Shown here: positions 52,753 through 64,000 of the stretch, one piece after another
Layout: each line of letters starts with the position of its first letter
Numbering within the stretch: the first letter of the stretch is position 1
Assembly: GCA_902801885.1 (NCBI GenBank)
Contig: CADCJX010000001.1
Coordinates: 67,961 to 131,960 of the forward strand
Reading direction: 5' to 3'
DNA: 64,000 bases
Source of the DNA: an uncultured Bacteroidia bacterium
GTDB taxonomy: Bacteria > Bacteroidota > Bacteroidia > Bacteroidales > UBA932
The notes under the pieces: model-generated
The model's database searches: none
The model's input: the letters and a program-made list of their open reading frames with translations, nothing else
What the model was told of the DNA's origin: nothing
Program-made: the position numbers and the translations under genes

Positions 52753-53595
52753 ATGGAAATAATTGTAAATCAGGAATTTGGCGGTGAACGTCCGTTGTAT
52801 TGCAAGAAAGACCTCTATCTCGAGAATGTAATCATCCACGCAGGTGAGTCAGGCCTTAAGGAGACGGCTGACATTACTGCCGTAAAGTGCCGCTTCGAAG
52901 GCAAGTATCCCCTTTGGGAATGCGACGGTTTCGTTGTCAGGGACAGCATACTCACCGTAGGAGCCCGTTCCGGACTCTGGTATTCCCGCAACGGAGAGCT
53001 TTACAATACTATCATCGATGCACCGAAGACCTTCCGCAGGATGGACGGCATCAAGATGAAAGACTGCTGGATTCCAGGAGGCACGGAAACTTTCTGGGAC
53101 TGCAGCAACATCGACGTCAGGGATTGTGTGATCGAAAGGGCCGACTACGTGTTCATGCACTGCGAGAACATCTTTCTTGAGAATGTCAAGCTCCAGGGCA
53201 ACTATGGCTTCCAGTACGCCAAGAATGTCGAGATCCACAACTGCGTGCTCAACTCCAAAGACTCATTCTGGGAGGCTGAAAACGTGACAGTGTACGATTC
53301 CGTAATCAACGGTGAATACCTTGCCTGGTATTCCAAGAACGTCAAGCTTGTCCGCTGCCACATAACCGAGACACAGCCCCTCTGTTACTGCGACGACCTG
53401 GTTCTAGAAGACTGCACCTTCGGGTCCGACAGCGACCTGGTCTTTGAGTATTCATCCGTCAATGCCACCGTCAAAGGGCACGTGGTTTCCATAAAGAATC
53501 CTCGTACCGGTCACATCCATGCGGGAAGCGTGGGCGAGATAATAATCGACGGGAACATCAAGGGACCCGGCGACTGCGTGATCACCACTGACTAG
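52753..53595 (+). CDS. DUF3737 beta-helix protein
   Basis: 280 residues matching DUF3737, a cytoplasmic right-handed beta-helix family. The sequence is a ladder of short coils with N/D-C-x-I/V repeats (VRDSILTVG, MKDCWIPGG, VRDCVIERA, LENVKLQGN, IHNCVLNSK). There is no signal peptide. Similar to pectate-lyase-like folds in shape, but no catalytic residues are evident, so the role is unknown. It is 15 bp after the MATE gene and likely shares its transcript. Confidence 0.8.
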   Translation: MEIIVNQEFGGERPLYCKKDLYLENVIIHAGESGLKETADITAVKCRFEGKYPLWECDGFVVRDSILTVGARSGLWYSRNGELYNTIIDAPKTFRRMDGIKMKDCWIPGGTETFWDCSNIDVRDCVIERADYVFMHCENIFLENVKLQGNYGFQYAKNVEIHNCVLNSKDSFWEAENVTVYDSVINGEYLAWYSKNVKLVRCHITETQPLCYCDDLVLEDCTFGSDSDLVFEYSSVNATVKGHVVSIKNPRTGHIHAGSVGEIIIDGNIKGPGDCVITTD

Positions 53596-53663: not shown

Positions 53664-55409
53664 ATGTCCGGGATTCGCAGGATCATATCAATCGGGATGA
53701 CGGTGCTCTTTGGCATCGCCATCTATTGTTTCTACTCTCTGAAATACCCCTACCACCTGCACTTCCAGGAACAGTACCAGCTCTTCGAGTTTACTTGGGC
53801 TTATTTCCTCAGGGTCTCCAGCGTCCCCGGAGGTCTGGCTGACTGGATCGGAAGATTCCTGACGCAATTCTGCTACTATGCTCCCGCCGGAGCAGCAGTT
53901 ATCGCCCTGCTGCTTTGCTCAGTCCAATTGCTGACTTTCGCTGCAGCCAGGAAGAAGAACCTGTCGACTTATGCCCTGAGTTTCCTCCCTGTCATTCCCC
54001 TGATAGCATTCTATTGCGATGAGAATGCGCTGTTAGGAGGGACAGTTGCTATCGCCATCTTGCTTGCGGCGAGTGCCCTGTGCAGGCAGATTCGTGACAG
54101 GAGGCTCCGGCTCATTATAGAAGCCGCACTTATTCCTGTACTGTACATGGCTTGTGGAAGCCTGACTGTTTTCTACGTCCTGATCACAATCCTTTCCGAA
54201 TGTATTGAAAACAAGGCCAAGGCACTTCCATTTGCCCTGATTTCGACAGTACTTGCTGTCGCCTGCCTATTAATAGCAGTACATATATTCCCATATGTCC
54301 TGGAACGCCTTGTACTGGGAGTCCACTACTACCGCTATCACAACATCCTTCCGGTAATGCTTTGGGTTGCCGGTCTATTCACTGCTGTGACGGCATGCCT
54401 GGGTTCATTGGAATTTTGGGACGGATTATCCAGGAAGCACATCCTTTCAGGATCGCTTATCTACTGTCTTCTTGTCCTACTTGGAACCGGCCTCACCATA
54501 AAGTCTGCCGACTGGGCCAAGGAAGAGTGGATGCACTATGATTTCATGGTCAGGATGGAGATGTGGAACCGTATAATGATGACAGCTGACAGGAAGAATC
54601 CTGACAAGCCAATGACAGTCTCCTGCCTCAATCTTGCCCTCTCCAAGACCGGCAGGATGAGCGACCACCAGTTCGACTATTTCCAGAACGGACCTGAAGG
54701 ACTCATTCCTGCATTCAAGGGGGACTTCACCAGCCCTGTACCCACCGGAGAGATTTACTGGCATCTCGGCATGGTCAACACCGCCCAGCACTACGCTTTC
54801 GAAGCCCAGGAGGCCATCCCGGATTTCCAGAAGAGTGCGCGTCTGTACAAACGCCTGGCCCAGACAAACATCGTCAACGGTGACTGGGGAGTTGCACGTA
54901 AATATCTCAAGTCCCTCCATAACACTCTTTTCTACCGCCGTTGGGCAGACGAGACTGTCGCCCTCCTCGACTCCGGAGAGATCTTCGAAAAGAGACCGGA
55001 GCTTGCAAGGGCCAGGGATCTCCGCCTAAAGGAACATGATTTCCTATTCAGCGAGACTGAAATGGACTCCATGCTGGGATTGCTCCGCGTTGAAAATCCT
55101 TCGAATGACATAGCATTGGATTACATGATGTCCTGGTGCCTTCTCAAGAAAGATCTAGGACGTTTCGTGGAGTTGATAGGTATGGTAACGGCTCCTACGA
55201 TGCCTAAATCCTACCAGGAAGCCCTGCTGCTGCGTTGGGTCCTCACCCATGACAGCTTCGAAGGCCTCCCCTCCTACCTCCTTCCTGTCCATGCCCAGCG
55301 CATCAGCAGGTTCATAAACGACCTTCAGGCAGGCAAGAAAGAAGATCAGATGCTCCGCGACTACGGTGACACTTACTGGTTCTACTACTATTTCAGATAC
55401 CGCAGCTGA
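53664..55409 (+). CDS. DUF6057-type polytopic membrane protein with helical-repeat C-terminal domain (cassette A)
   Basis: 581 residues. The N-terminal ~300 residues hold about eight membrane helices. The C-terminal ~280 residues are soluble and helical, with TPR-like pairs (GEIYWHLGMVNTAQHYAFEA, LYKRLAQTNIVNGDWGVARK, YLKSLHNTLFYRRWADE, DIALDYMMSWCLLKKDLGRF). The QTNIVNGDW...YL and SNDIALDYMMSW..LLKKDL segments recur in the two other copies at the right end (ETNLVTGDFEAASKYL; NKMALDYLLCYDLLTKDL). I assign it to DUF6057 by layout. No known function. It precedes the heme-motif propeller gene by about 16 bp, and is driven by a strong promoter. Confidence 0.75.
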   Translation: MSGIRRIISIGMTVLFGIAIYCFYSLKYPYHLHFQEQYQLFEFTWAYFLRVSSVPGGLADWIGRFLTQFCYYAPAGAAVIALLLCSVQLLTFAAARKKNLSTYALSFLPVIPLIAFYCDENALLGGTVAIAILLAASALCRQIRDRRLRLIIEAALIPVLYMACGSLTVFYVLITILSECIENKAKALPFALISTVLAVACLLIAVHIFPYVLERLVLGVHYYRYHNILPVMLWVAGLFTAVTACLGSLEFWDGLSRKHILSGSLIYCLLVLLGTGLTIKSADWAKEEWMHYDFMVRMEMWNRIMMTADRKNPDKPMTVSCLNLALSKTGRMSDHQFDYFQNGPEGLIPAFKGDFTSPVPTGEIYWHLGMVNTAQHYAFEAQEAIPDFQKSARLYKRLAQTNIVNGDWGVARKYLKSLHNTLFYRRWADETVALLDSGEIFEKRPELARARDLRLKEHDFLFSETEMDSMLGLLRVENPSNDIALDYMMSWCLLKKDLGRFVELIGMVTAPTMPKSYQEALLLRWVLTHDSFEGLPSYLLPVHAQRISRFINDLQAGKKEDQMLRDYGDTYWFYYYFRYRS

Positions 55410-55425
55410 CAAGATGACCCTCGAC

Positions 55426-56892
55426 ATGAAACGGACACTATCCCTGTTAATCACGGCAACCTTAGTACTGGCAGCCTGCAGCCCGAAAGCAAGGAATGCT
55501 TCTCAAGTTGCGGCCAGACCGGACATATATCCAGATTACATCGGGGTGACTATCCCCACCGGAATTTCACCGCTTGATTTCACGGTCAAAGGGACCGATG
55601 CCCTTGACGTCGTACTGAAGTCCCCTGACGGCAAGACACTCAGGTCAGGAGGAAAAGCCTCTACGAAGTTCCCCATAAAGAAATGGGCCAGGCTTCTCCA
55701 GAAAAGCATAGGTGACTCCGTCATGGTCTCCGTCTCCGCCAGGAAGAACGGGAAATGGGAATCTTACGAGCCATTCGGAATGTATGTCTCACCTGATCCC
55801 ATCGACTACGGACTTGACTACCGCCTCCTCGAACCCGGATATGAAATCTACAGCCACATGGGGATCTACGAGCGTGAGCTCTCGACTTTCAAGCAGAGAG
55901 CCATCATCGAGAACACACAGTTCGACGGCTGCGTCAACTGCCATTCCTTCAACCACAACGATCCTTCCGCCATGAGCCTGCACATCCGTGGAAAACATGG
56001 CGCCACCCTTCTCCAGTTCGACGGCAAACTGGCAGCGTACAACACAAAGACAGATTCCACCCTTGGCTTCTGCGTCTATCCCTACTGGCACCCTTCAGGG
56101 AACTATATTGCCTTCTCAACAAACAGCACCCGTCAGGGATTCCACGTCCAACCAGATAAGATAATCGAGGTGTTCGACCTGGATTCCGACATGCAGGTTT
56201 ATGACGTAAGGAATAACCAGATCATCACTGCACCGCAGATCAAGCGCGAGGGTATTTGGGAAAGTTTCCCGGCCTTCACTCCCGACGGACGCACCCTTTA
56301 TTTCACGGCAGCCAAAGCTATAGCAATCCCCGGCGAACTGACACAGTCCCATTACAACCTGATGAAAGTGAGTTTCGATCCGGAGACCGGAACCATAGGA
56401 AATGATGTCGAGCTGGTCATAGATGCCGCTTCAATGTCGAAAAGCGTCTGTTTCCCAAAGCCTTCCTACGACGGACGTTACCTGATGTACACACTATGTG
56501 ACTATGGGACGTTCTCCATCTGGCATCATGAATCGGATCTCTGGCTCCTGGACCTCCTGACTGGAGAGACCCGGCCGATTGATGAAGTAAACAGCGATGA
56601 CACGGACAGCTATCACAACTGGAGTTCCAATTCCCGTTGGTTCGTGTTTTCAAGCCGCAGGGACGACGGTCTTTTCACCCGTCCTTACATCGCCCACTTC
56701 GACGAAAACGGAGTGGCAGGAAAACCTTTCATGCTGCCTCAAAGAGATCCTGCAAACTATTACGAAGACCTCTTCCGATCCTTCAATGTTCCCGAGTTCG
56801 TAACCGGACCGGTCAAGATGAACAAGATACGCGCCCAGAAGGCAATCAATGCCCCTGAGCGCATCCAATTCGGTTTCCGCTGGTCGAAATAG
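55426..56892 (+). CDS. Heme c-motif (CVNCH) beta-propeller lipoprotein (cassette A)
   Basis: 488 residues from ATG 55426 (ATG 55414 is an alternative) with a lipoprotein signal (LSLLITATLVLAACS). Conserved opening YPDYIGVTIPTGISPLDF, then C169-V-N-C-H173, a c-type heme attachment motif, followed by LHIRGKHGATLL. From ~200 on it is a PD40/TolB-like propeller (AFTPDGRTLYFTAAKA, PSYDGRYLMYTLCDYG, LWLLDLLTGETRPIDE, WFVFSSRRDDGLFTRP). It is predicted to sit on the periplasmic face or cell surface. The third Cys-free propeller blades and single heme suggest binding or sensing rather than electron storage; that is inference. It is convergent with the GH5 gene, 3 bp apart. Confidence 0.8.
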   Translation: MKRTLSLLITATLVLAACSPKARNASQVAARPDIYPDYIGVTIPTGISPLDFTVKGTDALDVVLKSPDGKTLRSGGKASTKFPIKKWARLLQKSIGDSVMVSVSARKNGKWESYEPFGMYVSPDPIDYGLDYRLLEPGYEIYSHMGIYERELSTFKQRAIIENTQFDGCVNCHSFNHNDPSAMSLHIRGKHGATLLQFDGKLAAYNTKTDSTLGFCVYPYWHPSGNYIAFSTNSTRQGFHVQPDKIIEVFDLDSDMQVYDVRNNQIITAPQIKREGIWESFPAFTPDGRTLYFTAAKAIAIPGELTQSHYNLMKVSFDPETGTIGNDVELVIDAASMSKSVCFPKPSYDGRYLMYTLCDYGTFSIWHHESDLWLLDLLTGETRPIDEVNSDDTDSYHNWSSNSRWFVFSSRRDDGLFTRPYIAHFDENGVAGKPFMLPQRDPANYYEDLFRSFNVPEFVTGPVKMNKIRAQKAINAPERIQFGFRWSK

Positions 56893-56895
56893 TAT

Positions 56896-58680
56896 TTATT
56901 CCTGCACCTTTGGAGCTGAGTCATACACACTCTTGAGAGTGTAGGCAGGATCCTTTTCTGTCACGGCCTTCACCATCAAGTCCACAAGGGTCTTGGCATC
57001 ATCATCCACGAACTTCCCAGTGCCATGATTGATGTAACCATGCTTTTCAGAACCGACTCCGACAGCTCCGTTATCCCAGAGATACATCGGCAGGAGGTAA
57101 TCAGCCGCGGCCTTGCAGAAATACTCCATGTAATACTTCTGGTAAGGGAAGTCTTCCGCAGAATGACGTGAACACCCCATCTCTCCCAGATAGACGGGGA
57201 TACCCTTGTCCAGATAGGCAGCCTTCAGGTTGTCGAACACTGCCACCACGTTCTCCTCGTCAGCTGCACTCACGCGCTTGTCTGCATCAGCCGTGTGCCC
57301 CCACTGGCGGACCAGGGGATTTGCCAGGGTGTAATTGTAAGGATCATAATCATGGACAGCTACGATCAGGCGGTTGGCGTCGGTGTAATCCTCAGGAAGG
57401 ACCATTCCTGCGATTGTAAAGCCTGGATTAGCTGCATAACCGGGGATACCGAGCCAACGTGTGGCATTATTCCCTCCGGTACAGCGGACCGCATCCACGA
57501 ACACCTGGTTCCACTCGTTCAAGACCTTGTACTGGGCATTCGGATTGGAAACGAAGGCATCGCTCCATCCCCAGCCACCGTCCTGGATCTCGTTGAACGA
57601 TTCCATCACAAGCCATTCTCCCTTGTCCTTGAAGCGGTTTGCGATCTGGGTCCAGACGCAGAATATCTCGTCCTTGACCTTCTCGTGGGCAGACGCATTG
57701 TTATATACAGGCTTAATGTCCAGCCAGTAACTCTCGTCATGATGGGTATTCACTATGGCAACCAGGCCAGCCTTTTCAGCATATCCGACAATCTCCTCGA
57801 CTCTGGACAGCCATTTGTCATCAAGGCGGTAAGCAGGGGCTTCACCTATATGGCCAGCCCAGGTAACACAGATACGGACAGCCTTGAATCCTGCAGCCTT
57901 CAGGCCGTCAAAAGTGGACTGGGTACATTTGTCGTTGCCCCAGATCGTCTCTCCTGCCACTCCATTGCTGACAGCGTCCATCTGGTTGCCCATGTTCCAT
58001 CCTGGTGCCATTGCATTGAAAACAATCTCAGGATTAATCGCCGAGGTACTGGCTTTGGAGATTGCGAAGGCTTCCCTGGAGACTTTCACGGAAACGCTTT
58101 CTCCTCCGAAAGAGATCCTTACTGTTCCACTTCCCGCTTGATCGGTCCTGTTGGCAGCAGCGGATACGACCACGGTTGTCTTGTGGGATGAGTCGATCTT
58201 CCCGACACTGACCCCACACCATGCAGCATCCACAACCACCTCAGGTTGGGAGGATGAGGTAACTGTCAATGTTTCCTCTCCTCCGAAACGGTCGAAAGAA
58301 AGAGATGTCTTGTCAACTGAAAGCTTGACCTGTGGGATGTTCTGGGTCACCGGAATCATCAAGCTCTGCTTGTCACCTATCACACGGATGCTGGTGGTCC
58401 TGGCATCCGTCCCGGCGTTTTCCTTGACGGTTACGCTGTACTTGTAGGTATTGCCTGAAGATGCTCCTTGACTGATGCTCACCCAATTGTCGGAGCAACT
58501 CACTGTCGGCTGGATACCGCTGGTCAAGGTCAGGTCCTTGGTCCCTCCGGCAGAGTCGAACACCAGCTCCGACGGATTTGCGACCAAAGTCACCAACATG
58601 TCCTCAGCCGGTTCTTTTCCTCCGCATGCCACCATCATGCAAGCGGCAAGGACCGTAATCAACAGATTCATGGATTTCAT
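56896..58680 (-). CDS. BACON-domain GH5 endoglucanase lipoprotein
   Basis: 594 residues with a lipoprotein signal (LITVLAACMMVACGG). Two BACON-type beta domains (~30-115 and ~117-205, e.g. PSELVFDSAGGTKDLTLTSG and KTSLSFDRFGGEETLTVTSS) precede a GH5 TIM barrel: GWNMGNQMDAV, VRICVTWAGHIG, the acid/base Glu in ESFNEIQDGGWG, HDYDPYNYT and the nucleophile Glu in YLGEMGCSRH. The GWNMGN start suggests subfamily 4, whose members cut beta-1,4-glucans or xyloglucan. It starts 12 bp after the stop of cassette B's propeller gene and so ends the minus-strand operon. Confidence 0.88.
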   Translation of the reverse strand: MKSMNLLITVLAACMMVACGGKEPAEDMLVTLVANPSELVFDSAGGTKDLTLTSGIQPTVSCSDNWVSISQGASSGNTYKYSVTVKENAGTDARTTSIRVIGDKQSLMIPVTQNIPQVKLSVDKTSLSFDRFGGEETLTVTSSSQPEVVVDAAWCGVSVGKIDSSHKTTVVVSAAANRTDQAGSGTVRISFGGESVSVKVSREAFAISKASTSAINPEIVFNAMAPGWNMGNQMDAVSNGVAGETIWGNDKCTQSTFDGLKAAGFKAVRICVTWAGHIGEAPAYRLDDKWLSRVEEIVGYAEKAGLVAIVNTHHDESYWLDIKPVYNNASAHEKVKDEIFCVWTQIANRFKDKGEWLVMESFNEIQDGGWGWSDAFVSNPNAQYKVLNEWNQVFVDAVRCTGGNNATRWLGIPGYAANPGFTIAGMVLPEDYTDANRLIVAVHDYDPYNYTLANPLVRQWGHTADADKRVSAADEENVVAVFDNLKAAYLDKGIPVYLGEMGCSRHSAEDFPYQKYYMEYFCKAAADYLLPMYLWDNGAVGVGSEKHGYINHGTGKFVDDDAKTLVDLMVKAVTEKDPAYTLKSVYDSAPKVQE

Positions 58681-58692
58681 AAGCTATACTGA

Positions 58693-60150
58693 TCAATTAA
58701 AATCTTCAGCAGGTACCTCCTTCCAGACCCGGCCTATCTCCTCGGCATCGAATCCCACTGAGGAACTGCCCAGATCGGGAACATTGAAGGAGCGCAGCAT
58801 GTTGTCGTAGAAATGAGGATCACCCTGAGGAAGCAGGAATGGCTTGGTAACTGAACCATCCTCTGACACATGGCTGAACCAAGGCTTTCCGAACATCCCG
58901 TCTCCCCGCTTGGAGGCGAAGACAAACCACTTGGAAGTCGAAGACCAGCTATGGTAGGTGTCGGATCCATCTGCATTCACCTCATCGAGAGTGAATATAT
59001 TCCCAGTCTTCAGATCAAGCATCCTAAGGTCGCATTCCCTGTGGTTGATCGGAAAGGTTCCATAATCCGCAACCGTAAACAATAGCCAGCGTCCGTCAGG
59101 TGATGCCTTTGGATGACAGACCGAAAGACCATGCGCCGAAGCGCTCCAGACTGTGTCTGCCTGGGCCCCAAGTGTGCCTGTGGCAGCATCGAAGGGAACC
59201 CTTACCAATGAATACATGAGCTGGTTTATTTCAGCGGGGACGGGCCTGGCAGGAGCTGCACAATAATAAACCCATTTCCCGTCCGCTGAAAACACCGGAA
59301 AGGTCTCGAAGACGTCATCCCTTGCAGTGGCAGGAAAAGACATCATCTCGTTATTGTCAAAGTCTGCCACGCAGAGATCGGAAGCAGTGTCGAAGACCTC
59401 CATCCTGCGATTGGCGAAAGAATGCATGCCGGGAATGATTATGTTGGTGGAAAAGACTCCGAAACGTCCTGCAGGATGTATCTCTCCGTAAACTGTAGGA
59501 GAAATCATCGATGAATCCCGAAGCGAAAGCTTCCTGAGCGTCCCGTTCCTGTTCAGGATGGCTCCGCCTCCCTCCCCGCGGAGATAGAACATGCTGAGGT
59601 CTCCCCTGGCCTGCGAATGAATATGGCAGTTCATGCATTTGTTGGCAGTGTGTCTCCAGTCCGAAATGACCTTTGACTCAAAACTTTCAAGATGCCTTTC
59701 GACGATCTCAAGGTCATCCCAGACTTCGAATCCCGGTTCAATCAGGCGGTAGGTAAGGTAAGGATCGATAGGATCATCGCTTACGTGAATCTTCCAGCGT
59801 TTCTCCTCAACTGTCCCTGACTTCAAGGTCGAAACAACCTCTATTTCAGATCCTGAGGCTGAAGCGACCAGACGCTTCCACACCTTTTCCTTCCAGACGA
59901 CTTCCCTGCCCCTGAAGGTCACGGACTCCCCGCCTGAAGAGAAAACCGTAACAGCACGGGTAAGATCCGGATCAGTGTAATAGAAATTCAGCGGAGCTAT
60001 GTTACAAGGGATCGTCACCTCCTGGTAATCCGGGAACATGAATGAAGTACGGTCCGTATGGTCCCCTGCAGGGCGTACGTCCCTGGAATAGCAGCCGGTT
60101 ACCAGGAAAATGACCAAAACACAGGACGATATGACCTTGCTATTTCTCAT
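58693..60150 (-). CDS. Heme c-motif (CMNCH) beta-propeller lipoprotein (cassette B)
   Basis: 485 residues from ATG 60150 (MRNSKVISSCVLVIFLVTGC, lipoprotein signal); an upstream extension lies inside the neighbouring gene. It parallels the cassette A protein: FPDYQEVTIPCNIAPLNF opening, C172-M-N-C-H176, then a PD40/TolB-like propeller (VFSADGKWVYYCAAPA, ASPDGRWLLFTVADYGTFPI, MLDLKTGNIFTLDEVN, WFVFASKRGDGMFGKPW, FLLPQGDPHFYDN). Unlike the other two it has YLRGEGGGA after the heme motif instead of H-x-RGKHGA. It overlaps the upstream gene by 11 bp and precedes the GH5 gene by 12 bp. Confidence 0.8.
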   Translation of the reverse strand: MRNSKVISSCVLVIFLVTGCYSRDVRPAGDHTDRTSFMFPDYQEVTIPCNIAPLNFYYTDPDLTRAVTVFSSGGESVTFRGREVVWKEKVWKRLVASASGSEIEVVSTLKSGTVEEKRWKIHVSDDPIDPYLTYRLIEPGFEVWDDLEIVERHLESFESKVISDWRHTANKCMNCHIHSQARGDLSMFYLRGEGGGAILNRNGTLRKLSLRDSSMISPTVYGEIHPAGRFGVFSTNIIIPGMHSFANRRMEVFDTASDLCVADFDNNEMMSFPATARDDVFETFPVFSADGKWVYYCAAPARPVPAEINQLMYSLVRVPFDAATGTLGAQADTVWSASAHGLSVCHPKASPDGRWLLFTVADYGTFPINHRECDLRMLDLKTGNIFTLDEVNADGSDTYHSWSSTSKWFVFASKRGDGMFGKPWFSHVSEDGSVTKPFLLPQGDPHFYDNMLRSFNVPDLGSSSVGFDAEEIGRVWKEVPAEDFN

Positions 60151-61201
60151 TCTTGACGGCATAGTAGAAATAGTACCAATAAGTCTTTCCGAATTCATCG
60201 GTAAGATTGCGTCCCGATCCGTTGTCACGCTTGTAGATCGTGACGAAACGGTTGAACTTCTCCAGGGTCGCAGGAGAAATGTTGTAATGGATGAAATTCT
60301 CCTGGTCCATCCCTCCCTTTGATGCAAGGAAAATCAACATCGCTTCCTCATAAAGATGTGAGGCCGTCAGTGAGGGAACATAATCCGCGACGAATGCATC
60401 CAGGTCCTTTGTAAGCAAGTCGTAGCAGAGCAGATAATCCAAAGCCATCTTGTTGGAAGGGTTCGAATTGAGAAGCACCCTCAGTATGAGCTGGTTCTGA
60501 TCCATCCCGTGGACCAGGTCCGTACGGGGAAGGTATTTTCTCTTATTCTCGACGAAAGGCCTGAACTCCGGGCTCCATGATCCCGGAAGACGCTCCTCCG
60601 CCCATTTGCGGTCTGACGGTGAATTCAGGAGCATCCGCAGATACTTAGATGCAGCTTCGAAGTCCCCGGTCACAAGATTTGTCTCTGCAAGTCGGCGAAG
60701 GTATCTGGATCCTTTATGCTCAGGAGAGAAGAGCATGCCCAGCATCGCATCGCGTTCAGCCATCGTCATCTCACCAAGGGCGAACCATACGTCGCCTGCA
60801 CAACCGATCTGGAAAGGGGAAGACTTCTCTCCCACAGGAAGGAATAAGCCTGTCTCAAAAGGCTGGTAATACTCCATCAGCTTGTCGGCGAGCTGGTCAC
60901 GGTGGGCATTGGCAAGGTTGTAATAATAAGTAGCTATCCTCGACTTGATGTCGACTGAAGCCAACTCCGAGACTTTCGTCCAGTTCTCCAGCGAAGCCTC
61001 GACGGCCATTCCCATGACTCTCTCCGAGATCTTGTCCGGGTGGCCCCATGCCTTTCGGGCCTGAACGAGACTCACACCATTCTGGGCGGCATATTTCCGG
61101 AAATAAGGATATCGGATCAGGAAAGCGGCCTGGCTCGCGCCGGCAACGGCCAGGACCGCAGCCAGCGTGATAAATAGTGTGAGCCATCCTTTCCTTCCCA
61201 T
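60140..61201 (-). CDS. Single-helix membrane protein with DUF6057-like helical-repeat domain (cassette B)
   Basis: 353 residues. One N-terminal membrane helix (WLTLFITLAAVLAVAGASQA) precedes a soluble helical domain that parallels the C-terminal half of the cassette A DUF6057 protein: YRNLA-type LYRRLAET equivalents (RYLRRLAETNLVTGDFEAAS), KYLRMLLNSPSDRKWAEE, NPSNKMALDYLLCYDLLTKDLDAF and a C-terminal FGKTYWYYFYYAVK that matches YGDTYWFYYYFRY there. The polytopic part seen in cassette A is absent. It starts 6 bp after the DUF4369 gene and its stop overlaps the cassette B propeller start. Confidence 0.72.
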   Translation of the reverse strand: MGRKGWLTLFITLAAVLAVAGASQAAFLIRYPYFRKYAAQNGVSLVQARKAWGHPDKISERVMGMAVEASLENWTKVSELASVDIKSRIATYYYNLANAHRDQLADKLMEYYQPFETGLFLPVGEKSSPFQIGCAGDVWFALGEMTMAERDAMLGMLFSPEHKGSRYLRRLAETNLVTGDFEAASKYLRMLLNSPSDRKWAEERLPGSWSPEFRPFVENKRKYLPRTDLVHGMDQNQLILRVLLNSNPSNKMALDYLLCYDLLTKDLDAFVADYVPSLTASHLYEEAMLIFLASKGGMDQENFIHYNISPATLEKFNRFVTIYKRDNGSGRNLTDEFGKTYWYYFYYAVKNEK

Positions 61202-61207
61202 GGTTTA

Positions 61208-61744
61208 CTATTCAGAAACAGGATAAAGACCGAGCAAGAATTCACCGAGGATGCTTCCTTCTCCAAGAGAAAGCCCCATTGCCCGTGTACGTTCCTTGTA
61301 GGCTTCATGGACAGAGTCGGCCTGTTCCTTCATTCCGGCATCATATAGCGGACCGAATACCTTGTTCCTCTGAATGGTAAGGTCCTTCCAGACCTGGAGG
61401 CTGTCATTCTGAGGTGTCCCGCCTCCGCTGCTGTCCGGGCCGATTGTTACATATATATCCCCGGGTTCGGTGACTACAAGGAGATTCTGCCCCTTGTGAC
61501 GCTCGTATTTGCTCAGTCTCAGTTCACACATCCAATGCTCCCTTCCCTTGAAGAAAAACTCATGATTGTGGATGTGGACTGAATCGACAAATTCCGCAGT
61601 TTCGTGTCCGAGTGGTACGAGGAATATCTGGACGCCCTCGAGGTCGTTCGACGCCACCCTCCCATGGATCCTGTACTGGTCGCCGGAACAGGATGAGAGC
61701 AAAAGAGCCGCCAGGGCAGTTGAAATAATCAATAATCTATTCAT
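61208..61744 (-). CDS. Stand-alone DUF4369-type lipoprotein
   Basis: 178 residues with a lipoprotein signal (LLIISTALAALLLSSCSG). The YRIHGRVASNDLEGVQIFLVP opening, FVDSVHIHNHEFFFKG and VVTEPGDIYVTIG are hallmarks of DUF4369, a domain normally found N-terminal to a TlpA-like thioredoxin domain. Here the protein ends with no CxxC thioredoxin part. Its ATG shares one base with the stop of the cassette C propeller gene (TAATG), and the cassette B membrane gene follows after 6 bp. A role at the membrane in the same process as the propellers is likely, mechanism unknown. Confidence 0.78.
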   Translation of the reverse strand: MNRLLIISTALAALLLSSCSGDQYRIHGRVASNDLEGVQIFLVPLGHETAEFVDSVHIHNHEFFFKGREHWMCELRLSKYERHKGQNLLVVTEPGDIYVTIGPDSSGGGTPQNDSLQVWKDLTIQRNKVFGPLYDAGMKEQADSVHEAYKERTRAMGLSLGEGSILGEFLLGLYPVSE

Positions 61745-63192
61745 TATTTAACAGTTGCTTGAACGCGCCTATCGGAAAATACTTCCCGGTAAACACCGTG
61801 GGTTTTGAAACGCACCTTTGACTTGGTAAAATCTGGGGCGTTGTATGAATACATTACGCTATGGTAGAACTTGCGGGGATTGCGCTGCGGAAGCACGAAC
61901 GGCTTGGTACAGTGCCCCTCTTCATCAATTGAAGCAATATATGTCTGGACATAGAGACCGTCATCCCTCCTGCTGGAGAAGAGGAACCATCTGCTGTCAG
62001 AACTCCAGTTGTGGAAGCTCTCGGAGAGCGGACTGTTGACTTCGTCTATCGGGCGAGTCTCCCTTGTCTTAAGATCCATCAGCCAGAGGTCCGCCTCCTT
62101 GTGATCGATCGGGAAGACTCCGAAGTCGGCCAGGTTGTACATAAGCCAACGACCGTCGTAAGAAGGGCGGGGAAAACTGATGCTCTGTCCATGAAGGCTT
62201 GCCGGGATGACAGTCTCGATGTCTCCCAAAGTTCCGGTCTCAGGATCGAACGAGACACGCATCAGGTCGTAACGGATGCTGTCCACCTGCCTGGGAACAT
62301 CATAAGCCTTGGCTTTGCAGTAATAAAGGGTCTTTCCGTCTGGAGTAAAGGAAGGTGAAGACTCCAGGAAGTCCTTAGTGTTGAGGCGCGGGTCCACTAT
62401 CAGGGAGTGATCATTCATGTCCATGATGACCAGGTCAGAAACCATGTCGAAGACCTCGATCGGTTGCCTGTCTCCTGCCCAGAAACACTGCTTGACAGGA
62501 TTGATCGAACCGGCCAGCCAGCGGCCTTCAGGATGCCAGTAGCAGTAGGCCATGTTGCCCAGGGTGCTGTCTGTCTTCGTTGTCACCCATTCCCGGCGTC
62601 CATCTTGCTGGATCATGGTAGCTCCGTGCTTGCCACGGAGATGAAAAAGGAACTGCCTTGGATCAGTGGCATTGGCAGTGTGGCAGTTCATGCACTGGCC
62701 AGGTGTAAGTGTACTTTCTATGATAGGTTCCTCGTGGAAACTATGCAGATCCCTCTGATATAGGCCGATACGGCTGTAGGTAGTGTAACCGGGAGCGATC
62801 TTGCGATAGGTCACGCCGTAGTCATCCAGAGGCTGGGAACTGACATACATTATGAAATCCTGCCACTGGGTCCATCTTCCGCCCTTCTTTCCGAGGACGG
62901 TGAAAGTCAGGGTGCCGCCGGCATTCTGCTCCGTAAGAGCATGCCATTTGCGGACAGGGAAAGATGCCCAACGGCCCCTTGTCTTGAGAAGACCGCCGTT
63001 GCTTCCGGTCACCCGGACAAAGACGCGGTCATATTCTTCAGGAATATTGAAATCCATCGGCGCTATCCCTGCCGGGACAGTCACTCCTATGTAATCCGGA
63101 TAGATTTCGGGAAGCGTGTCAGACAATGACGTGCCACCCTTGCAGGAGTAAAGCAGCAGAGCAACTGCGACAAGTGAAATGAACTTTCTCAT
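61744..63192 (-). CDS. Heme c-motif (CMNCH) beta-propeller lipoprotein (cassette C)
   Basis: 482 residues from ATG 63192 (MRKFISLVAVALLLYSCKGG, lipoprotein signal). It has the same plan as the other two: YPDYIGVTVPAGIAPMDF, C167-M-N-C-H171, FHLRGKHGATMI, then the propeller (SFTPDGKTLYYCKAKA, PSYDGRWLMYNLADFGVFPI, LWLMDLKTRETRPIDEVN, WFLFSSRRDDGLYVQ, FVLPQRNPRKFYH). It overlaps the DUF6057-like gene upstream by 4 bp (ATGA) and the DUF4369 gene downstream by one base, so all are translationally coupled. Closest to the cassette A copy. Confidence 0.82.
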   Translation of the reverse strand: MRKFISLVAVALLLYSCKGGTSLSDTLPEIYPDYIGVTVPAGIAPMDFNIPEEYDRVFVRVTGSNGGLLKTRGRWASFPVRKWHALTEQNAGGTLTFTVLGKKGGRWTQWQDFIMYVSSQPLDDYGVTYRKIAPGYTTYSRIGLYQRDLHSFHEEPIIESTLTPGQCMNCHTANATDPRQFLFHLRGKHGATMIQQDGRREWVTTKTDSTLGNMAYCYWHPEGRWLAGSINPVKQCFWAGDRQPIEVFDMVSDLVIMDMNDHSLIVDPRLNTKDFLESSPSFTPDGKTLYYCKAKAYDVPRQVDSIRYDLMRVSFDPETGTLGDIETVIPASLHGQSISFPRPSYDGRWLMYNLADFGVFPIDHKEADLWLMDLKTRETRPIDEVNSPLSESFHNWSSDSRWFLFSSRRDDGLYVQTYIASIDEEGHCTKPFVLPQRNPRKFYHSVMYSYNAPDFTKSKVRFKTHGVYREVFSDRRVQATVK

Positions 63193-64000
63193 TCTGCGCC
63201 CTCCATCTGCTTGAGCCGCTGCCACACGGTATAATATTCAGCGGCCATGAAATTGTCTTTGTTCTGGTTGTAAAGGACGGCCATCATGATGTCCAGTCCC
63301 TGGTAACCTGTGATGAAATCATCCTTGAAACGGACCGACCTGACATAGGCGTAGACCGGATCGGAATTGACAGCAGCCTCATTCCTGATCATTTCCTTCC
63401 TGCGAAGGGCGTCTTTGCGGTAGAAAAGGCTGTGGGAAAGAAGGTCCAGGTACCTTTCTGCCGGTCCATACCAGCCGTTTACTATGTTGCAGTCAGCCAT
63501 GCGCGAGAGGAATCTCCCGCTCAACCGGCCGTTCTCGATGGACTCCATCGAATCAAAATAGTACTGAAGGGTGATGTTCGGCATGCCCATCATCCACAGG
63601 AGTTCAGCCGAAGTGAGATCCGAAACATTGTCACGAATGGACGGTTGGACAAGCCCCTGGGTCCCGCACTGGTAGAAATCAGTCAGACGGGATGAAAGCT
63701 GGCCGGTCATAAACAGGCTGAAATTCACCGAACATGCGCTTATAGGGTTGTGAGGCTGATAATGCTCAGCCCTTTTGACCACATCCTGATAACGTTCGTG
63801 GCGGATGAGGTCGTCGTAAGCCAAGACCTCGTAAGCGTCCCTGTCATAGGCAAGCCTCACTGAGCCGGCCGTTGCAATGGCCAGAACCACAAGGATGGCC
63901 CAGTCAACCGTCACCGGATGTTTTAGTTTCGCTCCCAGTCCACTGGCAAAGATGCATCCCAGGGTTACGAATGGAATGACGACCTGAAGGACTGGCAGCA
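63189..64000 (-). CDS. DUF6057-like membrane protein, 5' end outside window (cassette C)
   Basis: The frame is open to the right edge. The visible ~270 residues begin in a hydrophobic stretch (PVLQVVIPFVTLGCIFASGL, and WAILVVLAIATAGSVRLAY), then a soluble helical domain parallel to the other two copies (FLSRMADCNIVNGWYGPAER, YLDLLSHSLFYRK, FMAAEYYTVWQRLKQ). The residues CNIVNGWYGPAERYLDLLSHSLFYR align with TNIVNGDWGVARKYLKSLHNTLFYR of cassette A. It overlaps the propeller gene by 4 bp (ATGA). Probably a polytopic protein like the cassette A copy. Confidence 0.72.
   Translation of the reverse strand, partial: LPVLQVVIPFVTLGCIFASGLGAKLKHPVTVDWAILVVLAIATAGSVRLAYDRDAYEVLAYDDLIRHERYQDVVKRAEHYQPHNPISACSVNFSLFMTGQLSSRLTDFYQCGTQGLVQPSIRDNVSDLTSAELLWMMGMPNITLQYYFDSMESIENGRLSGRFLSRMADCNIVNGWYGPAERYLDLLSHSLFYRKDALRRKEMIRNEAAVNSDPVYAYVRSVRFKDDFITGYQGLDIMMAVLYNQNKDNFMAAEYYTVWQRLKQMEGAE

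Follow-up and report, generated by a model that had tools for sequence, protein, structure and literature searches.

A co-inherited gene pair of a DUF6057 membrane protein and a CxNCH-motif propeller lipoprotein, often found in polysaccharide-utilisation operons of Bacteroidota

Background and Summary

In a 64,000-nucleotide stretch of the genome of an uncultured Bacteroidia bacterium (assembly GCA_902801885.1, contig CADCJX010000001.1; hereafter the window), positions 53664-64000 hold three cassettes, one on the plus strand and two in a minus-strand operon, each composed of a gene for a protein of the family DUF6057 and a gene for a beta-propeller lipoprotein carrying a C-x-N-C-H (CxNCH) motif. 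Here, we report that the two families are found in the same genomes, nearly always as adjacent genes, and are inherited together, and we are highly confident that they form one functional unit. The cassette is often encoded inside polysaccharide-utilisation operons, in some gut and other Bacteroidota. Our best explanation of its role, offered tentatively, is an enzyme with a GT-C-like membrane module and an arm of tetratricopeptide repeats (TPRs) that works with a heme-motif propeller. The genome of origin comprises 2.46 Mb in 31 contigs, and its nearest named relatives are Bacteroidales. Searches of an open-access library found no account of the pair, and the name 'DUF6057' was also without a match there.

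Pairing and co-inheritance of the two families

Among 119 genomes of the order, DUF6057 scored over the cut-off in 14, and a full-length propeller was found in exactly the same 14; outside these, the best propeller match reached 111 bits (in G065, from a TPR-fused relative described below) and all others stayed under 29 bits. In a phylum-wide set of 296 genomes, both families were present in the same three, including the genome of origin. Scoring in these searches was confined to some of the initial candidates, at most 13 propeller candidates per genome in the set of 119 and at most five, at an E-value limit of 1e-12, in the set of 296. The initial annotation of the window had proposed that the two families act together, and this distribution, in which they do not occur mostly apart, upholds them as one unit.

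The genome of origin has seven DUF6057 genes over the Pfam cut-off and eight full-length propellers plus one remnant. Each of the seven DUF6057 genes directly precedes a propeller, and the pairing seen in the window is therefore more than chance; one propeller has no DUF6057 gene directly upstream. The remnant, the C-terminal part of a propeller gene (G000:C4:102394-102711), is a sign of cassette turnover.

For a wider comparison we used named loci, the 80 best among 577 confirmed stretches and hence a sample biased to close relatives, in which only propellers above 450 bits were counted and five propeller pieces below that score were excluded. In these loci, 148 of 151 propellers follow a DUF6057 open reading frame (ORF) on the same strand at a median gap of -3 nt (pairing allowed from -500 to +2000 nt, with each ORF taken at its longest). 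Of the three unpaired propellers, two sit at a contig end (L077, L079), and four of 155 DUF6057 ORFs are without a downstream propeller. When the range was narrowed to -500 to +300 nt, 143 pairs from 79 loci were left, and the distance matrices of their DUF6057 and propeller members correlate at 0.92; 300 within-locus partner swaps averaged 0.25 and peaked at 0.49. As linkage alone could produce a high correlation, the result demonstrates joint inheritance rather than contact. Cultured carriers among the 80 loci include Marinilabilia salmonicolor and Gaoshiqia sediminis, and DUF6057 copy 1 has no close relative in the viral contigs searched.

The three cassettes of the window

The three pairs named in the initial annotation are real (Table 1): Pfam recognises DUF6057 in all three partners, at 570, 307 and 183 bits for copies 1-3 (PF19529, curated cut-off 29.8), and assigns PD40 to all three lipoproteins. 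With the chosen start codons, the genes of pair 1 are separated by 16 nt, while those of pairs 2 and 3 overlap by 11 nt and 4 nt. Beyond the window, the full gene of copy 3 (L002:13150-14613) encodes 487 residues, and upstream of it on the same strand lie genes for a 483-residue unnamed lipoprotein, a SusD protein (over the Pfam cut-off) and a SusC-type protein (assigned by eye). The order of the minus-strand operon is hence SusC-type, SusD, 483-residue lipoprotein, DUF6057, propeller, DUF4369 lipoprotein, DUF6057, propeller and an enzyme of glycoside hydrolase family 5 (GH5) with BACON stretches. Just upstream of cassette 1, at 52753-53595, stands an apparently separate DUF3737 gene (PF12541, E 6.6e-114).

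Table 1. Genes of the three cassettes and their immediate neighbours, in window coordinates.
Feature	Position	Strand	Family match or other evidence
DUF6057 copy 1, 581 residues, full length	53664..55409	+	PF19529, E 8.8e-171
Propeller lipoprotein 1, 488 residues: lipobox C18, N-terminal domain, CVNCH 169-173, TolB-like propeller	55426..56892	+	
GH5 enzyme carrying two BACON stretches, at the end of the operon	56896..58680	-	PF00150, E 3.5e-51; PF13004
Propeller lipoprotein 2, CMNCH	58693..60150	-	PD40 (Pfam), motif, alignment A1
DUF6057 copy 2, 353 residues: one N-terminal hydrophobic helix and TPR arm	60140..61201	-	PF19529, E 3.4e-91
DUF4369 lipoprotein, between cassettes 2 and 3	61208..61744	-	PF14289, E 4.6e-06
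Propeller lipoprotein 3, CMNCH	61744..63192	-	PD40 (Pfam), motif
DUF6057 copy 3, cut by window end	63189..64000	-	PF19529, E 1.4e-53 (partial)

Architecture and predicted fold of DUF6057

DUF6057 copy 1 combines a predicted, probably GT-C-like membrane module (about residues 1-283) with a TPR-type helical arm. In its AlphaFold2 model (mean predicted local distance difference test score 95.7), VIA-align matched residues 1-286 to Pmt4 and Pmt2, the best solved-structure matches of the predicted membrane module, and residues about 292-444 to TPR proteins; identity to Pmt4 and Pmt2 is only 11% and 8%. A Pfam scan of copy 1 matched DUF6057 only, and a sequence search of solved structures with DUF6057 gave nothing credible.

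According to the initial annotation, all three partners keep the same helical segments, which is correct for the stretch that they have in common; overall it does not hold, as copy 2 is without the GT-C-like module and covers only positions 237-569 of the PF19529 profile, and the full gene of copy 3 stops at position 478 of 569. A frameshift is an unlikely cause of the short copy 3, since the DUF6057 copies of four near relatives (L024, L025, L026, L094) end at nearly the same place, at 494-496 of the 582-position profile of alignment A4. This alignment holds one window sequence and 78 of 80 non-redundant DUF6057 sequences, from 102 above 200 bits, and a divergent subgroup is absent from it.

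The membrane module was further compared with a profile of 29 PMT_2 proteins from related genomes (an ORF was obtained from 29 of the 30 PMT_2 loci). Over 282 columns, the two profiles aligned in order with a probability of 52.9% (20.4% in local mode), and E36 of the first DUF6057 loop stood opposite the E of the GT-C 'DE' motif. Another column rule gave 35.5%, and 20 resampled sets a median of 33.3%; reversed profiles gave 0.9% and 0.1% in the controls and, for the resampled sets, a median of 0.1% and a maximum of 3.7%. Two small sub-groups (eight and seven sequences) gave no match, and ten single GT-C sequences reached 0.1-6.4% with the DUF6057 profile, hardly above the best (0.6%) of six single non-GT-C proteins. 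These six proteins and the reversed profiles constituted the controls, as a polytopic control family from the loci reached a cluster size of three only and viral contigs yielded no relatives for one.

In the first loop, D or E occurs within aligned residues 33-41 in all 140 module-bearing copies (135 from the loci and five from the genome of origin). Of these copies, 124 have E36 itself and 139 have Q68, and a stricter EQxQLF-like pattern is found in 88 of the 135 locus copies. From the model and the profile comparison, a GT-C-like fold of the N-terminal module is likely; that DUF6057 is an active transferase is a proposition about which we are somewhat doubtful.

In the divergent subgroup (14 copies; L028, L029, L032, L036, L037, L045 and others), an HDRSEF-type first loop replaces EQxQLF, and the loci in which its members are seen contain a further, main-type DUF6057 copy as well. 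One DUF6057 ORF (L037:8466-10010) has a CAPCH of its own, probably by chance.

Topology of the two partners

Ten DUF6057 ORFs of the loci begin late in the profile, without the membrane module, and one of these (L030) is an ORF split at the end of a contig. Module-less copies have a single helix or a lipobox at the N-terminus, the lipobox being recognised by script in L027 and L033 and by eye in L035, L055, L098 and a copy on contig C4 of the genome of origin. The export of such copies argues for a TPR arm with an extracytoplasmic site of action, which is in our view very likely. The first loop of DUF6057, too, would be extracytoplasmic.

The lipobox Cys of the propellers is kept in 82 of 83 rows of alignment A3, which consists of the three window propellers and 80 of the 151 locus propellers. 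In Bacteroidota lipoproteins, an acid-rich stretch after the lipidated Cys marks surface export. At least two acids at positions +2 to +7 were present in 19 of 122 propellers versus 46 of 48 SusD proteins from the same loci (Mann-Whitney p 2e-21 for the number of acids), where the script had recognised a lipobox in 122 of 151 propellers (none in 29) and in 48 of 50 SusD proteins. The propellers, which mostly lack the acidic stretch, therefore probably face the periplasm, where the TPR arm could be met, and the location at the outer surface proposed in the initial annotation is not supported.

The propeller, its CxNCH site and the question of heme

The initially noted C-x-N-C-H motif near residue 170 was recovered as CVNCH (residues 169-173) in the first window propeller and CMNCH in the other two, and all three have the shared opening in the form PDYxxVT(I/V)P. 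Every one of the 151 locus propellers has CxxCH, with CxNCH in 147 and G or S replacing N in four. Across the 83 rows, C169, C172, H173 and R188 are invariant and no Met is conserved; H397, kept in 81 rows, is a candidate second axial ligand.

TolB is the closest solved fold, and a sequence search of solved structures with the propeller returned mainly TolB-like or other propeller stretches. Unlike TolB of the Tol-Pal system, the cassette propeller is a lipoprotein with CxNCH, and the three window propellers score far below the cut-off of the NCBIfam TolB equivalog (16.8, 16.0 and 17.5 bits versus 343). The alpha subunit of hydrazine synthase is a beta-propeller protein with c-type heme (PMC12758564), which the cassette propeller would resemble if it carries heme. 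Hydrazine synthase had no Pfam match in the window at E<=1 and was not among the best 50 structure matches, which excludes nothing.

The genome of origin has a member of the CcsA family PF01578, next to a gene that by eye is ResB-like. PF01578 is over the cut-off in 14 of 14 cassette genomes versus 84 of 105 others (one-sided p 0.055), and among genomes without a strong NrfA match in 9 of 9 versus 37 of 57 (one-sided Fisher p 0.03). NrfA as the only reason for the cytochrome assembly genes was rejected, as the genome of origin has no NrfA match; NrfA is present in five of the 14 cassette genomes and absent from this one and eight others, save for a weak match in G102. Other clients of the assembly genes are possible, given that PF01578 also occurs in G008, a genome of the same genus that has neither gene of the cassette. 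Cytochrome c maturation genes and the motif permit heme and do not show it; judging from the sequences, we lean towards CxNCH carrying a covalent heme c.

On contig C14, a gene for a thioredoxin-like lipoprotein with DUF4369 and AhpC/TSA domains (L021:5880-6893) lies directly upstream of a DUF6057-propeller pair, and its product might serve the CxNCH site as a thiol partner.

Four distant proteins from three genomes (L119, L138, L139, L141) share the N-terminal region, the CxNCH and the propeller, followed by further sequence in one chain, and Pfam found C-terminal TPRs in the three that were scanned (L119, L138, L139). In contrast to the cassette, these are single genes, with an N-terminal membrane helix by eye. 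Their genomes had no DUF6057 over the cut-off in the 119- and 296-genome searches, and Pfam and NCBIfam scans gave no curated name for the family. The union of propeller and TPRs in one chain suggests that propeller and TPR arm belong together.

Operon context

SusC or SusD relatives are present in 57 of the 80 loci, a raw rate, and share a gene run with the propeller in 44 of 103 runs, many of which are cut by locus ends. The search models were built from two SusC proteins (chosen by eye) and three SusD proteins of the genome of origin. The recurrent order is SusC, SusD, an unknown lipoprotein or gene, DUF6057 and propeller, often followed by DUF4369, DUF6057 and propeller; DUF4369 lipoprotein relatives occur in 30 of the 80 loci. 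In the genome of origin, where 20 SusD-family matches pass the cut-off, four of five cassette sites are no more than about 8 kb away from one of them; this is unlikely by chance, as an estimated 13% or so of the genome is within 8 kb of such a match. On contig C4, a SusC-type gene and SusD are followed on the same strand by a short DUF6057 gene with a lipobox, a propeller gene and the gene of a pectinase-type enzyme, whose best NCBIfam score (213.6 bits) is below the model cut-off of 500.

Neighbouring proteins were aligned in two sets, A5 with 46 of 47 proteins (one was too long) and A6 with 44 of 50 (six were already in A5). Just downstream of propellers, Pfam finds several glycoside hydrolase families, with GH5 in 4 of 46 cases, and the commonest family is the RidA-type (Ribonuc_L-PSP) domain (7 of 46). 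The initial suggestion of specificity variants beside GH5 is loosely consistent with the variety of hydrolases and with the pairwise co-divergence of the partners. A chorismatase-like N-terminal domain is found downstream in 5 of 46 cases; RidA-type and chorismatase-like domains are odd neighbours for a glycan operon.

Discussion

We propose that the cassette forms one complex of the inner membrane and periplasm, often encoded within a polysaccharide-utilisation operon. DUF6057 would lie in the inner membrane, with an N-terminal GT-C-like module, the fold of lipid-phosphate-sugar transferases including protein O-mannosyltransferases, that has a conserved acid in its first loop, and with its C-terminal half as a periplasmic TPR arm. 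This arm would hold the periplasm-facing lipoprotein, a TolB-like propeller with CxNCH and, most likely, covalent heme c. The GT-C-like module could then transfer sugar from a lipid carrier to a periplasmic glycan or to one of the operon's exported proteins, while its heme-propeller partner could select the target or gate the reaction. The TMTC proteins offer a comparison: their published description (PMC7801869) presents them as GT-C O-mannosyltransferases whose first extracytoplasmic loop has an acidic motif and whose TPRs are extracytoplasmic. DUF6057 would likewise have an N-terminal, probably GT-C-like module with a first-loop acid and then TPR repeats on the extracytoplasmic side; it differs in its shorter module (about 283 residues versus 426-475), in being bacterial and in being encoded with a propeller lipoprotein.

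Sugar transfer, scaffolding and electron handling are the alternatives for the cassette, and sugar transfer is a possible answer to which we would not commit ourselves. The first-loop acid (140/140) and Q68 (139/140) of the module-bearing copies exceed what a membrane anchor would appear to need, and so speak against a structural or chaperone complex in which TPR arm and propeller, Tol-like, assemble or place periplasmic parts for glycan uptake and the GT-C-like module is only an anchor or a degenerate relic. Such a scaffold would agree with the closeness of the propeller to TolB, with the distant relatives that unite propeller and TPRs without the GT-C-like module, and with the propeller partners retained by module-less DUF6057 copies; however, these copies are seen where the locus or genome also has a module-bearing copy, except for L030, and we judge the scaffold the less likely explanation. 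Two observations weigh against the proposed enzyme with its heme partner. Hydropathy gives DUF6057 eight segments, which alone would place the C-terminal arm inside, a count not reliable enough to decide, and the apo model of the propeller puts CxNCH in a beta strand.

The latter would suit a heme-free site for thiol/disulfide chemistry or a metal, as would the missing Met ligand and the N at the second x in 147 of 151 propellers, which is stricter than heme attachment requires. The N does give way to G or S in the remaining four, whereas C, C and H are constant, and this together with the PF01578 distribution among cassette genomes makes a heme-free site rather unlikely. Were heme the essence of the cassette, the propeller might sense or pass electrons in the periplasm with DUF6057 as its membrane partner, a redox reading that the initial annotation had raised for the outer surface. 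The retention of both Cys and the His (83/83), the CxxCH in all 151 locus propellers and in the four TPR-fused proteins, the cytochrome assembly genes and the thioredoxin-type gene upstream of one cassette in the genome of origin would fit such a redox device, but no redox neighbour is conserved (a relative of the thioredoxin domain occurs in 1 of 80 loci), Pfam sees only DUF6057 in the intact partner, and a polysaccharide operon seems to offer no obvious electron route; we regard it as improbable.

The results give DUF6057, a family of unknown function, a strict partner and a fold that can be put to the test, and they place it in polysaccharide-utilisation operons. The two genes are nearly always together, also in cultured species, and are thus amenable to genetics. 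The most far-reaching form of our proposal, a bacterial periplasmic GT-C/TPR glycosyltransferase that works only with a heme propeller and is matched, operon by operon, to particular polysaccharides, is a long shot, and if true it would tie glycan uptake to glycosylation of the envelope, controlled by heme or redox. Should the enzyme reading itself be true, gut Bacteroidota would build sugar-transferring complexes with a heme-motif subunit that are matched to diet.
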